A DNA stretch of 22,774 bases from a virus. The notes beneath the pieces are model-generated. The model was not told the origin of the DNA. It searched no databases and saw nothing but the letters and a program-made list of their open reading frames with translations. The position numbers were made by a program, and so were the translations under genes. Where the stretch lies: the IMG/VR virus record IMGVR_UViG_3300030117_001130, positions 7,006-29,779 of that record. The stretch is one strand, 5' to 3'. Below are positions 12,037 through 19,965 of the stretch, in pieces (position 1 is the first letter of the stretch; each line of letters begins with the position of its first letter).

Positions 12037-12933
12037 TTAGATGCTTTTACCATGTATTTTACGTGCTGTCAAGGCTGTGTTAGCACTCTCATACGTATTC
12101 TTCATGTATGGTTTGACTGACTGCGGGTTAGCATGTCCTGTTACCGACATGATCTGTCCTATACTTACACCTGCTTCTACCATCTCTGTTGTGCCAGTAC
12201 GACGCAGGTCAGATAGTCGCAGTTCTTTTGACAGACCTGCTTGATCCATCAGCTTACGTGCGTGTAGAGGTAGCTTATACTCACTGTATGGTATGTACTC
12301 ACCACCCACAGGCTGTGGCCGTGGCGCTACCCACTGCTGGAATCCAAAGTCCTCATGCTGCTGCTGTAGCATCTCAAGCAAGTCGTCGTCTATGGGCAAG
12401 AATACTTCTGCCCTACGCTTCGACTGTTCAATATGTACACGAGCCTTATCAAATTGTATAGATTCCCATGTCAGCATACGCATGTCACCGACACGCTGAC
12501 ACCAAGCATATGCCATGTGTGCGATCAACCCTATGTTACGGGTGCTAAAATCCCCGTAGGCCACGTCTAGCAGCTTGACTATATCTTCCCTACCCCACAC
12601 AACCTTGCGCGGCTGTGTGCTGCGTCTACGGACGATTGAGAAGGGGTTCAGGTTGCAATGCTCCATGCGCACTGCGTAGTTGTACAAGATACGGGTAGCT
12701 GCCATGACATGATTGGCAAACGAGATGCCACGATCACACCATAGATCATACGCCAGCTTGGCTTGCTTGGTGCTGACATCAGCAAGATTGAGAGAACCAA
12801 GACGCTGACCATCTATCTCTGTGTCAAACATGACACGCTGAAAGTATTGATACTGCGTCTTAGTTTCGTCTCGTAAGTTCTTGAAGTCATGGGAAGAGTA
12901 ATACTCATCCGCAAGTGCTTGTATAGATAACAT
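12037..12933 (-). CDS. int: Tyrosine-family integrase
   Basis: The 298-residue protein has a SAM-like N-terminal core-binding domain (about 1-100) and a catalytic domain with R147 (WCQRVGD), K172, R244 (SDLRRTG), H267 (TGHAN) and nucleophile Y276, at the usual 9-residue H-to-Y spacing. The first His of the H-x-x-R box is Ser241, a tolerated deviation in many tyrosine recombinases. It would integrate phage DNA into the host chromosome, implying a temperate lifestyle. It sits within the replication operon between the hydrolase and primase, not beside a recognisable attachment site. No excisionase was recognised nearby. Confidence 0.93.
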   Translation of the reverse strand: MLSIQALADEYYSSHDFKNLRDETKTQYQYFQRVMFDTEIDGQRLGSLNLADVSTKQAKLAYDLWCDRGISFANHVMAATRILYNYAVRMEHCNLNPFSIVRRRSTQPRKVVWGREDIVKLLDVAYGDFSTRNIGLIAHMAYAWCQRVGDMRMLTWESIQFDKARVHIEQSKRRAEVFLPIDDDLLEMLQQQHEDFGFQQWVAPRPQPVGGEYIPYSEYKLPLHARKLMDQAGLSKELRLSDLRRTGTTEMVEAGVSIGQIMSVTGHANPQSVKPYMKNTYESANTALTARKIHGKSI

Positions 12934-12934
12934 A

Positions 12935-13786
12935 CTATCTCCTTCCCATGCTCCACAGTGCAGTGGATGTCTCTATCAACTCGTCATGCCACATGACATT
13001 CTTTCTGAACTCATGTGGGATACCACAGTATCCGTAGTGTGTGCCAGCAATCATACCGGCAACCGCACCCACCGTGTCACTGTCGTGACCGCGATTGACT
13101 GCTTTGATAACACAGTCCTCAAAGGTATCCGTAGTTTGGAATGCCCACATAGCTGCCATGTATGTCTCGACAACGTAGCCGCCTGACATCACCTCTTTGC
13201 GAGGTATATCCAGACTATGCCTGAACTTTTGATACTTGTCAAGTGGGCCACAGTAGTACAGTTCTTCTGCCAACATTGTGCCATACTGTACACATATTGG
13301 TGCCGCATGTGTCAGCAGTGTCTGCTGCGTAGCAAGTTGTATAAGTTCTTGCCTGTTCATAGCGGCCAAGACTACGGCAGCAGTTCGCATCAGCGCACCG
13401 TTGCCAGCAGACTTAGGGCTAGTGTCTCCCTTATATGGGCTAGTTGGATGTTGAATGTAACGCTCCAACGCACGGACAGTTGTTGTGCCAATGTCAAAGC
13501 ACTCACCACGAGGGATGAACTTACCATCCCTGTACCATGCCACGAAGTTATCCATGATAGCGTTAGGATCAAAGCCACCCTTGTCAAGTATTGCTTTGCA
13601 CATGGCGAGTGTCATGGCTGTATCGTCAGTCCACTCACCAATGTCTACATCATGGAACCCGCCCTTGTGGTACTTGGTTATGTAGTCTTCTGGTTCTCTG
13701 GCGTCTAGGAACTCTAGAGGTGCGCCAAGCGCATCCCCTATTGCAAGTCCGATCATCATACCATTAGCTTGATCTATTGATTGCAT
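12935..13786 (-). CDS. ADP-ribosylglycohydrolase (DraG/ARH family)
   Basis: The 283-residue protein has the family landmarks in order: GLAIGDALGAPLEF (13-26), WTDDTAM with T53-D54-D55, SAGNGALMR (126-134), H160, and GHDSDTVGAVAG with D235/D237/T238. The three acidic clusters bind two Mg2+ ions. Family members remove ADP-ribose from arginine, serine or nucleic acids, or cleave related metabolites. In a phage it may reverse ADP-ribosylation by host toxins or tune host proteins such as nitrogenase reductase; the target is not readable. It lies two bases before the integrase start, in the same operon. Confidence 0.93.
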   Translation of the reverse strand: MQSIDQANGMMIGLAIGDALGAPLEFLDAREPEDYITKYHKGGFHDVDIGEWTDDTAMTLAMCKAILDKGGFDPNAIMDNFVAWYRDGKFIPRGECFDIGTTTVRALERYIQHPTSPYKGDTSPKSAGNGALMRTAAVVLAAMNRQELIQLATQQTLLTHAAPICVQYGTMLAEELYYCGPLDKYQKFRHSLDIPRKEVMSGGYVVETYMAAMWAFQTTDTFEDCVIKAVNRGHDSDTVGAVAGMIAGTHYGYCGIPHEFRKNVMWHDELIETSTALWSMGRR

Positions 13787-17783: not shown

Positions 17784-17813
17784 AGTGTAGGACATTGCCC
17801 CCCGCAAAGTCAA
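17784..17813 (-). promoter_or_regulatory. Likely promoter before the 124-residue gene
   Basis: Leftward TTGACT (17808-17813), 18-base spacer, TACACT (17784-17789), in the gap between the 119- and 124-residue genes. It is weaker than the TATAAC promoters. Confidence 0.55.
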
Positions 17814-18169
17814 GCGGCCCAGCGGCCTTCATTTGCACAAGTCAGGTCAGCGATAACATCAGTCACGCCAAACTCTGACAGGTCGATATTATGGTTCTTG
17901 CCGTCAAGGAATTTGTCAACCCCGGTCAGCACCATCTCGAAAGTCGTGATGGAATTAGAGCCAATGCGGGTGCCAAATTCATCCTTAACCTTACGCGCAG
18001 CGACGCGGCTGGCAAGATAGCAAGCCATTTTAGAAACACGAACGCCGTGCTTGCGGATCATCTTGGCATTGACGCGATCATATTTGACCTGATTTGATTC
18101 AGACAAATTTTGACCAGTCAGGCCAGTAGATTGGAACCAGTACTTGACGTTAACAGTTTGAATGCTCAT
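17810..18169 (-). CDS. First leftward early protein, unknown function
   Basis: The 119-residue protein begins MSIQTVNVKYWFQSTGLTG and has a basic middle (RVNAKMIRKHGVRVSK) and an acidic Asp-rich end. I use ATG 18169 because GGAG lies 8 bases upstream; the longer frame from 18211 would begin inside the promoter. It is the first leftward gene after the control region, with a good promoter about 40 bases upstream. That position suggests an early-expressed host-takeover or regulatory protein, but no helix-turn-helix or other motif is clear. Confidence 0.7.
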   Translation of the reverse strand: MSIQTVNVKYWFQSTGLTGQNLSESNQVKYDRVNAKMIRKHGVRVSKMACYLASRVAARKVKDEFGTRIGSNSITTFEMVLTGVDKFLDGKNHNIDLSEFGVTDVIADLTCANEGRWAA

Positions 18170-18207
18170 TTGCAATTCTCCATTTGCGGTTGGTTGGTGT
18201 GGAAGTG

Positions 18208-18236
18208 ACATTACTTCCCCAAACGAAACCTGTCAA
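18208..18236 (-). promoter_or_regulatory. Leftward early promoter
   Basis: TTGACA (18231-18236), 17-base spacer, TAATGT (18208-18213), ahead of the first leftward gene; predicted transcript start is about 30 bases before its ribosome site. Confidence 0.8.
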
Positions 18237-18240
18237 GGTG

Positions 18241-18325
18241 TACCGGCGACAATTCTTAACTGCCTCATGGTTTTGTCTTCACGAAGAAGAGCGTCGGCCA
18301 TGCGACTAGCGAACCGTCGCCGGTA
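18241..18325 (-). ncRNA. Branched RNA fold closed by a 10-bp stem
   Basis: TACCGGCGAC (18241-18250) pairs perfectly with GTCGCCGGTA (18316-18325). Inside are two further hairpins: TCTTC/GAAGA (18276-18280, 18283-18287) and GTCG/CGAC (18293-18296, 18303-18306). A leftward promoter candidate at 18345-18373 would put this fold at the start of its transcript, ahead of the first early gene. It is a candidate small RNA or leader; the rightward strand cannot be excluded. Confidence 0.5.
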
Positions 18326-18344
18326 TGTTTTCGACTTCACATTT

Positions 18345-18373
18345 TACTTAGCTATACAGCGACAATTAGTCAA
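18345..18373 (-). promoter_or_regulatory. Possible leftward promoter upstream of the branched fold
   Basis: TTGACT (18368-18373), 17-base spacer, TAAGTA (18345-18350). The spacer contains one copy of the GCGACAATT repeat, a possible binding site for a regulator. Confidence 0.45.
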
Positions 18374-18697
18374 TCCCCTAGTGGATTAGCAGATTGCACG
18401 TTTTCAAATGTGCGGCCTGTCTATTGTTGGACCTACCCTTTTATTGGTTCGGAATGCGGAACCCGTCAGGCACGGTCCCCGCATTTACGTTTCTTTCCGC
18501 CCGTGTTTTACCTCACCCGCTAGTCCTACCTCGCCCCTGCCAATGTTACACTAGGTCGCACTGGTGGCCGTCGAGACGGTTCTCTAGCATAGAGCCGTTC
18601 GTATCTACCGTCTGCGGGATTGACCGCTGGCAGGTTCGGTATTGTCAAGAGGTCCGCACCTCGCAGGTTTTTAGGTTGCCTCGTCAACCGCCCCTTC

Positions 18698-18726
18698 ACA
18701 CTAGGGCATCGCGTCGGGCCTGTCAA
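18698..18726 (-). promoter_or_regulatory. Possible leftward promoter in structured region
   Basis: TTGACA (18721-18726), exactly 17 bases, TAGTGT (18698-18703). Confidence 0.45.
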
Positions 18727-18778
18727 GCCCCGCCAGTTTCGCGGGTTTAACCGCCCAGCACTGGCGCTGGTATCGTGC

Positions 18779-18816
18779 GTCAGGGGTTGTCTGCCGTGGC
18801 AGCGCGTCGTCCTGAC
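18779..18816. repeat. Structured repeat copy A
   Basis: Outer stem GTCAGG/CCTGAC (18779-18784, 18811-18816), internal loop GGTTGT opposite CGCGTCGT, inner stem CTGCC/GGCAG (18791-18795, 18798-18802). Copy B at 18892-18931 keeps the loops and inner stem but changes the outer stem in a paired way. Confidence 0.75.
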
Positions 18817-18862
18817 TGTCGAGGATATGTGGTTATCGGACTTGTCCGCCTCGACCTTCATC

Positions 18863-18891
18863 ACCCTAGCGACTTGCGCCGGGGCTGTCAA
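18863..18891 (-). promoter_or_regulatory. Possible leftward promoter in structured region
   Basis: TTGACA (18886-18891), exactly 17 bases, TAGGGT (18863-18868). It lies directly beside repeat copy B; a leftward transcript would start just before the GTCGAGG/CCTCGAC hairpin and then run through copy A. Confidence 0.42.
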
Positions 18892-18931
18892 GCCGGGGGT
18901 TGTCTGCCTGTTGGCAGTGCGTCGTCCCGGC
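18892..18931. repeat. Structured repeat copy B
   Basis: Outer stem GCCGGG/CCCGGC (18892-18897, 18926-18931), internal loop GGTTGT opposite TGCGTCGT, inner stem CTGCC/GGCAG (18904-18908, 18913-18917). Compared with copy A, outer-stem pairs 2 (T-A to C-G) and 4 (A-T to G-C) change on both sides while the loops are conserved. Confidence 0.75.
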
Positions 18932-19022
18932 GACAATTGAAAGATGGCAGCATCGGGGTTGAATGTCAACACCCCTAGTCAAGCTGTTGATTTTATTGAG
19001 GTTTTTTCAGGGTGATAAATCT

Positions 19023-19037
19023 GTTCCTGTTTTGTTC
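19023..19037. promoter_or_regulatory. LexA box 1 (alphaproteobacterial type)
   Basis: GTTC at 19023-19026 and 19034-19037, exactly seven bases apart: the GTTC-N7-GTTC operator recognised by LexA in Alphaproteobacteria. The N7 ends in GTTTT, as in box 2 when read on the other strand. Confidence 0.75.
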
Positions 19038-19080
19038 CTAGTTCGGTCATGGTTTGTTCCGGTATGGTAGCAGGGTAGGA

Positions 19081-19095
19081 GAACAAAACGAGAAC
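19081..19095. promoter_or_regulatory. LexA box 2, inverted relative to box 1
   Basis: GAAC at 19081-19084 and 19092-19095, seven bases apart. On the opposite strand it differs from box 1 at only two of 15 positions. A TATAAT lies 11 bases downstream at 19107-19112, so box 2 would cover the -35 zone of a rightward promoter. Confidence 0.75.
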
Positions 19096-19124
19096 GATAG
19101 ATCATATATAATAAGGTAGGGGAT

Positions 19125-19181
19125 ATGCACCGCCAGAAGATACCGGGTATCATTTTGAAATTGTTGTCTTTTTCACGGTAG
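19125..19181 (+). CDS. Doubtful 18-residue hydrophobic peptide
   Basis: A short frame, MHRQKIPGIILKLLSFSR, begins 13 bases after the TATAAT that follows LexA box 2 and has AAGG 8 bases before its ATG. Its basic ends and hydrophobic middle resemble small SOS-induced membrane toxins in general character only. So short a frame could be chance. Confidence 0.2.
   Translation: MHRQKIPGIILKLLSFSR
19139..19151. repeat. Short palindrome
   Basis: GATACC-G-GGTATC, a 6-bp perfect inverted repeat with a single central base, in the control region just after LexA box 2. Possible operator. The remaining sequence from 19182 to 19390 holds a further 7-bp inverted repeat (CCCGCCG 19289-19295, CGGCGGG 19332-19338) and nothing I can identify as a gene. 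Confidence 0.35.
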
Positions 19182-19393
19182 CTGGTGGCGTCAAATGATA
19201 GTCAGTCACTAGACTTTGCTTTGATTGTTGCGTCAAGCCATTGTTATCATTAAAGAATCAGGCGATACGCCAGCAATACTGCCCCAATCCCGCCGCCTCG
19301 CCCCCGCATTGCGCGACAATTCAAAGGTGTACGGCGGGTGCCACCCCCCCGTTAGTAGTATATATGTATGTAGAAGCACACAGATTAGGAAAA

Positions 19394-19619
19394 TTAAGTG
19401 TTAACCACAGAAACAACTGAAAACATTTATGCACAAAGGATGTGCAATGTGCTTAATTTTTAGGCAATGATAAATTAAATCGCGGGAATCTACACTTTAG
19501 GTATTGACACGGTATCTAGATTGTGATATAATTATATAAACTAAACGAACAGACACTTTAAGTGATCACTTAAATGTTATTTATTAAAATATAAATACAC
19601 TTAAATGTACAATTAAGTG
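19394..19619. promoter_or_regulatory. Operator-like array of TTAAGTG sites
   Basis: TTAAGTG or its complement occurs at 19394-19400, 19558-19564, 19567-19573, 19598-19604 and 19613-19619. The second and third form a perfect 18-bp palindrome, TTTAAGTGATCACTTAAA (19557-19574). The last two form an inverted pair with an 8-base gap. The near match CACTTTA occurs at 19494 and 19554. The array surrounds the rightward promoter, as operators of a repressor or replication initiator would. Confidence 0.65.
19504..19532 (+). promoter_or_regulatory. Perfect consensus rightward promoter
   Basis: TTGACA (19504-19509), 17-base spacer, TATAAT (19527-19532): exact sigma70 consensus in both boxes and spacing. 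Predicted start is near 19539, about 18 bases before the 18-bp palindrome, so a bound repressor could block it. It drives the rightward arm. Confidence 0.9.
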
Positions 19620-19634
19620 AGATGGACTGTCACC

Positions 19635-19736
19635 ATGAAGTATCTAATGTATGTTCTTGTAGCTATCATATGTGCGTATGTTGCGTACATTATGGGTGTG
19701 GCACTCGTACATACAGTTTGTGATTGTTTAAAATAA
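19635..19736 (+). CDS. 33-residue single-span membrane peptide
   Basis: A short frame (ATG 19635, TAA 19734-19736) begins MKYLMYVLVAIICAYVAYI and is nearly all membrane span, with two Cys near the end (CDCLK). The ribosome site is weak (GAGATGG 9-15 bases upstream). It is the first possible gene after the rightward promoter. A hydrophobic frame of this kind is unlikely but not impossible by chance in AT-rich DNA. Confidence 0.45.
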   Translation: MKYLMYVLVAIICAYVAYIMGVALVHTVCDCLK

Positions 19737-19755
19737 TGAAAGTTTTTTCTTGACA

Positions 19756-19965
19756 ATGGCTAAAAAATCTGTAAAACTATACACAGACAATGTGCTTGAT
19801 GCATTCTATAATGCTATCCGTACTAACTCACTAGACAAACTTCATATCCCCCACAGTGATGTATTCTACGTGCGTCAGGCTGTAGAAGCGCATTATGGTA
19901 GACCCTTTACCCTAAAGCATGTGGAAGATGCAATGAGGGCTGAAGGATGGTCGGAGGATAAGTGA
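19756..19965 (+). CDS. Small phage protein, unknown function
   Basis: The 69-residue protein starts MAKKSVKLYTDNVLDAFY and ends with a TLKHVEDAMRAEGW helix. The helix-strand-helix pattern could be a small winged-helix or adaptor domain but no family is clear. I prefer ATG 19756 over the TTG at 19750. The ribosome site is weak. It is followed directly by the next ATG, showing the genes are co-translated. Confidence 0.65.
   Translation: MAKKSVKLYTDNVLDAFYNAIRTNSLDKLHIPHSDVFYVRQAVEAHYGRPFTLKHVEDAMRAEGWSEDK

Follow-up and report, generated by a model that had tools for sequence, protein, structure and literature searches.

Predicted LexA operators between the divergent gene arms of an HMO-2011-type podovirus with an integrase

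Results

The divergent control region of an integrase-bearing podovirus of the HMO-2011 type probably carries a composite operator for host LexA, at which LexA would repress transcription and from which it would be released by the SOS response. The sites, a tandem array of overlapping LexA-type boxes and a single box facing it, lie in a window of 22,774 nt (the whole stretch of DNA analysed; positions 7006-29779 in a virus record 34,858 bases long). They are improbable in shuffled sequence, conserved in diverged relatives and identical to alphaproteobacterial SOS operators. The features discussed below are listed in Table 1.

Table 1. Features in and around the control region (coordinates of the window)
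Feature	Coordinates	Strand	Remarks
Tyrosine integrase, 298 aa, upstream of primase	12037-12933	-	phrog_1, E 1.3e-32; PF00589 only
First early-arm gene, 133 aa	17810-18211	-	Usually present beside boxes
Candidate -35 (TTGACA) for a leftward promoter of the early arm	18964-18969	-	Weak -10 (3/6); putative
IHF-like site AATCAACAGCTTG, left of the array	18980-18992	-	Fits WATCAANNNNTTR; function putative
Left LexA-type box GTTCCTGTTTTGTTC	19023-19037	+	Exact GTTC-N7-GTTC match
Tandem array, four GTTC half-sites in 11-bp steps, forming overlapping LexA-type boxes	19023-19059	+	15/16 match
Right LexA-type box GTTCTCGTTTTGTTC	19081-19095	-	Exact GTTC-N7-GTTC match; faces the array; kept in HMO-type relatives
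TATAAT, candidate -10 of a rightward promoter	19107-19112	+	6/6; starts 11 bp past the right box
Perfect sigma-70 promoter (TTGACA-17-TATAAT) ahead of the structural arm	19504-19532	+	12/12; no overlap with a LexA box
First right-arm gene, 69 aa from ATG	19756-19965	+	HMO-type subgroup I; anchor gene; 88-100% identical in 80 loci

The phage and its genes

The DNA polymerase of the phage is 76% identical (over 100%) to that of Puniceispirillum phage HMO-2011, followed by several roseophages at 56-68%. It contains the CXXCXGXG (DnaJ-like) insert that, with the common gene order, marks the phage as an HMO-2011-type podovirus, with an integrase and two divergent gene arms. In its polymerase, DnaJ-like insert, integrase position and divergent layout it resembles subgroup I of these phages (PMC9038755, PMC6918029), but the cultured members of that subgroup examined here have other palindromes instead of LexA boxes. 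HMO-2011-type phages are one of the dominant marine viral groups (PMC9038755), and CRP-3 is the sole member for which integration has been proven (PMC6918029). All hosts known for the group (SAR116, roseobacters and Pelagibacter) are Alphaproteobacteria, which fits the host class that a first-pass annotation of the DNA had read from the boxes.

That annotation had also seen no CI-like gene nearby, and our searches agree: no S24 or HTH_3 repressor (PF00717, PF01381) was found in 24 records with boxes (hereafter boxed), though the present record lacks about 20 kb of a complete genome. A search for lysogens in bacterial genomes returned only phage contigs binned in metagenome-assembled genomes, and a search for attB with the intergenic region against 385 alphaproteobacterial genomes gave only short, weak matches. 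A gene at 12935-13786, labelled ADP-ribosylglycohydrolase-like by eye, is present in three of eight boxed and none of eight boxless genomes compared.

Operator sites in the control region

GTTC-N7-GTTC occurs only twice in the window, as the left and right boxes, and the first-pass annotation had placed both correctly by position and strand; aligned as inverted repeats they are identical at 13 of 15 positions. The number of occurrences is weak evidence by itself: 0.61 are expected for the whole window, and 13 of 100 shuffles of that window gave two or more. The close opposition of the boxes is another matter. When the intergenic region (18212-19755, 1,544 bp) was shuffled 20,000 times with its dinucleotides preserved, only one shuffle produced an opposed pair no more than 100 bp apart. 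The description of the region as two inverted boxes proved incomplete: the boxes are indeed opposed, but the left one is the first unit of an 11-bp array that had been overlooked, and the actual layout is a four-half-site array (starting at 19023 GTTC, 19034 GTTC, 19045 GGTC and 19056 GTTC) plus one opposed box. No array of this period at 15/16 appeared in 20,000 shuffles of the same region.

The TATAAT element to the right of the right box had likewise been missed. If it is a -10 element, the right box would cover the -35 region of this candidate promoter. Overlap with a predicted promoter, as expected of an operator, extends to most relatives, in which the right box lies 9-13 bp before a TATAAT-like element scoring 4-6 of 6. 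No TTGACA-like -35 hexamer is found at the expected place for the TATAAT at 19107, an absence that would equally suit an activator. On the other side of the array, the IHF-like site, which has counterparts in 6 of 19 non-redundant boxed relatives (0.5% of shuffles), and the minus-strand TTGACA may belong to a leftward early promoter. The perfect sigma-70 promoter before the structural arm, readable in HMO-2011 too, lies downstream of the boxes, and LexA therefore need not tightly control the right (structural) arm.

Other elements were noted around the boxes. The stretch 18394-18972, whose conservation in L114, L136, L149 and L249 extends over several reading frames simultaneously, has internal repeats (TGTCTGCC, GGCAGCGCGTCGTC) and is probably a non-coding element. 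In L217, L233, L254, L273 and HMO-2011 an inverted repeat whose arms vary by phage (AACTGATACCATAACAGTT, AAGTGATAGTCAATCACTT, GTTAGTCTGTGCTAAC) lies about 100-200 bp to the right of the boxes and is possibly an attP core. An Rfam search of the control region gave three sub-threshold matches, which we regard as chance.

The same motif in alphaproteobacterial genomes

GTTC-N7-GTTC, the direct repeat that both boxes form, is the published LexA motif of Alphaproteobacteria (PMC3323433). Most of 32 alphaproteobacterial lexA loci carry it ahead of lexA, and one host lexA locus (L305) and one recA locus (L357) have two boxes each, overlapping at 11 bp. A stricter core, GTTCNNGTTTTGTTC, is present in 87 of 289 alphaproteobacterial genomes, with 124 listed sites compared with 33 for a control consisting of the pattern read backwards (hand counts). 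The identical 15-mer of the left box has 22 listed sites in the 289 genomes (hand count). The core precedes lexA (L395), imuA-like genes scoring below the family cut-off (L370, L371 and L386), PA0069-type radical SAM genes (L392 and L397) and S24 genes (L374 and L375). This enrichment, with the placement before lexA and imuA-like genes, points to control of SOS genes by the same sequence in Alphaproteobacteria. Other core sites adjoin no recognisable SOS gene, and the core alone is therefore not proof case by case.

The phage thus shares with the alphaproteobacterial SOS regulon (PMC3323433) the motif and its spacer core, as well as the overlapping boxes that precede a lexA gene and a recA gene of hosts. 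Boxes at host genes number one or two, however, whereas the convergent layout of array and box belongs to the phages examined. The published motif, the core before lexA and imuA and the recurrence of the boxes at this position in about 20 diverged relatives bear out the earlier assignment of the boxes as operators of the alphaproteobacterial LexA type. As predicted LexA operators they are well supported, the LexA of the phage's own host being their presumed ligand.

HMO-type relatives with and without boxes

The comparison covered this window and 80 viral-contig loci that encode the first right-arm gene; box pairs lie 590-735 bp upstream of that gene in a minority of them. About 20 environmental HMO-type relatives with differing flanks keep an array or box, an opposed box and a TATA element in the same slot. 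Arrays like that of the present phage are found in L021, L022, L249, L254, L259, L262, L267 and L273, while a second form (L208, L213 and L229) has one box on each side and lacks the long array. In L247 and L248 the boxes run in the same direction.

The first-pass annotation had proposed looking for the boxes in related phages, and the outcome is divided. The environmental relatives carry them, whereas no box pair is present in HMO-2011, CRP-1, CRP-345, CRP-603, CRP-207 or CRP-3, and the integrase-bearing isolates HMO-2011, CRP-1 and CRP-345 show the same architecture with no LexA boxes in that slot. By the annotation's own criterion, absence from close relatives of like architecture, the boxes thus amount to an exchangeable variant and not to a trait of the group. 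Several boxless cultured relatives have other palindromes in the region (e.g. AGTCCGCTGTCGGACT and TGTGATCACA), which are perhaps operators of other regulators. Repeated palindromes (AGTCCGCTGTCGGACT; TGTGATCACA; GTCCAACGTTGGAC) were noted in or near the control region of boxless L001, L002 and L233 and of L003-L006 and L281.

We also considered that the boxes might track the presence of integrase. An integrase is encoded in all boxed HMO-type records in which the early arm was found and in nearly all boxless ones too, so the group offers no contrast and the idea was dropped. Two degraded integrases were seen: that of boxless L202 (record G462), whose primase is 91% identical to that of this phage, is split into two frames, and that of L252 (G480) is a remnant full of stops.

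Box pairs in other phage types

Among viral contigs, convergent pairs were found in 108 stretches, compared with 5 for a control motif with an equal number of fixed bases and 15 for divergent pairs, although these controls are imperfect mirrors of the convergent pattern, whose two arms fix TT one base apart. Same-direction pairs also occur among the viral-contig matches listed, so the convergent arrangement is not the sole one. At positions left free by the pattern, the 57 non-redundant pairs never have G at position 5, have C or T at position 6 in 86% and G or C at position 7 in 90%, and have only T or C at position 11. The gap between the boxes, which the search fixed at 20-50 bp, clusters near 21, 30 and 42 bp with a best period of 9.4-9.9 rather than 10.5, so that phasing of the gap is suggestive only.

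Most of the 108 stretches are not of the HMO type. In four records of a different podovirus type (L104, L167, L183 and L187) the convergent pair adjoins the small terminase gene and, where visible, early or replication genes lie on its opposite side. A tyrosine integrase search of 26 records with pairs gave one match, in the distantly HMO-like L143; the 25 non-HMO records, of which six are 53-79 kb long and some are fragments, gave none of the tyrosine type.

Discussion

In an undamaged host, we infer, LexA would occupy the right box over the -35 region of the rightward promoter as well as the opposite 11-bp array of overlapping boxes, and would thereby silence transcription starting in the control region. 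DNA damage would stimulate LexA self-cleavage through RecA, empty the sites and switch the region on, such that the phage would employ the SOS repressor of its host in place of a self-cleaving repressor of its own. LexA binding, repression, SOS induction and any part in maintaining lysogeny are predictions from the sites and their context. Because many uncultured relatives keep the arrangement, the phage is predicted to sense the damage alarm of its host directly.

The first-pass annotation went further and had LexA directly gate the choice between lysis and lysogeny. A LexA-driven switch of this kind is no more than a plausible prediction for this integrase-bearing phage, and because other phage types that gave no tyrosine integrase match carry similar pairs, lysogeny cannot be their sole use. 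LexA might bind for another purpose, by delaying or tuning early lytic transcription or by being titrated by decoy sites that raise the SOS response. We give this possibility appreciable weight, though clearly less than LexA repression with SOS release. The convergent pairs at the junction of terminase and early genes in the other podovirus type speak for it, as does the failure to find a tyrosine integrase in the 25 non-HMO records, a result confined to that integrase type. For HTVC027P, a lytic pelagiphage, an increase in recA, lexA and umuDC transcripts has been reported (PMC12753301), but HTVC027P has no box pair. Against this possibility, the phage analysed here has an intact integrase, as do all the boxed HMO-type records in which the early arm was found, and a decoy needs no promoter-fixed spacing to a TATA box.

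The sites might instead serve a regulator encoded by the phage itself whose recognition sequence resembles that of LexA by coincidence, an explanation we consider unlikely. One candidate would be the 133-aa protein of the first early-arm gene (17810-18211). Among loci with 2.5 kb or more of upstream sequence, an adjacent homologue accompanies the boxes in 14 of 19 cases and is found at none of the 40 boxless loci, a strong association that takes no account of relatedness. The other palindromes in the slot of boxless relatives would also be expected if each phage had its own regulator. Yet the boxed close relatives L249 and L268 have no homologue of this protein and L242 has one without boxes, so the protein is not strictly required. 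This pattern, together with fold searches that gave no match at E <= 0.001, led us to reject it as the box-binding protein. No HTH family was found in it, and its AlphaFold model is helical with moderate confidence (pLDDT 71.5), a fold of low similarity to others. Homologues were found by tblastn on the fetched loci, and back-translated patterns returned none. In the genomes compared, none of this record's genes is shared by every boxed genome and missing from every boxless one. An unrecognised DNA-binding protein could be among the early-arm proteins. The exact core of the boxes, finally, is an SOS operator in hosts.

It is very improbable that the 11-bp array and its opposed copy are arm-type sites of the integrase or replication iterons, although tandem repeats of 10-11 bp look like either and the IHF-like site adjoins the array. 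Family searches and alignment recognised no arm-binding domain in the integrase, whose 298 aa match the catalytic family alone; an N-terminal domain of that kind would be expected with lambda-type attP arm sites. Similar pairs were also seen in phages that yielded no tyrosine integrase, the repeats are missing from phages whose integrase is related, and the repeat unit coincides with a LexA operator. The domain content of the integrase and the first of these observations led to the rejection of lambda-type arm sites and iterons. A chance resemblance to LexA boxes is hardly credible, since shuffles that reach two matches per 22.8 kb in 13% of cases fail to reproduce the pair spacing or the array, and pair and array recur in the same slot of diverged relatives.

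Direct involvement of LexA in phage control has precedents. In CTXphi and coliphage 186, which have the gammaproteobacterial motif, LexA acts together with a phage repressor or on its antirepressor, whereas no phage repressor was found here. In the temperate Bacillus thuringiensis phage GIL01, host LexA acts on dinBox1/1b of promoter P1, and the phage protein gp7 is a LexA partner (PMC4551915, PMC6182141). GIL01 and, by prediction, the present phage are alike in having LexA sites at a phage promoter, one strong with an adjacent partial one, and no evident CI-type repressor. They differ in that LexA binding has been proven for GIL01, an unrelated Gram-positive phage with a motif of the GAAC-N4-GTTC type, whereas the sites described here are known from sequence; in addition, GIL01 has no 11-bp array facing an opposed box. 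By this analogy the predicted control logic is that of GIL01, in an unrelated phage with an alphaproteobacterial motif. No homologue of gp7 was recognised; the 133-aa protein could be a LexA partner like gp7, or could merely be linked to the boxes. A more elaborate proposal, which we find rather doubtful, is that abundant marine podoviruses, some of them without a detected tyrosine integrase, exchange a host-LexA control cassette as a module, and that LexA dimers on the array and the convergent box, roughly helix-phased, assemble into a single higher-order repressor complex, in which the 133-aa protein may be a gp7-like partner.

No repressor that could set the choice between lysis and lysogeny was recognised in this HMO-2011-type phage. 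Should LexA bind these sites, damage to DNA, through sunlight for instance, would have a direct effect on such phages, and a single promoter fragment and a single host protein would suffice to test how they make that choice. The similar sites in phages that gave no tyrosine integrase match would widen control by host LexA beyond classical lysogeny.

We found no report of LexA sites in HMO-2011-type phages in the open literature, most subscription papers falling outside this scope. The box pair is also absent from the cultured phages HTVC027P, HTVC103P (first 50 kb) and CRP-804. Pelagibacter phage HTVC103P, with no box pair in the 50 kb read, encodes an 85-aa protein annotated as a putative LexA repressor (gp30; L549, 7863-8120). 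Roseobacter phage CRP-804 has a single GTTC-N7-GTTC (L550, 1723-1737) in a gap that precedes an early gene, with a MarR-type gene and an integrase lying downstream of the motif.
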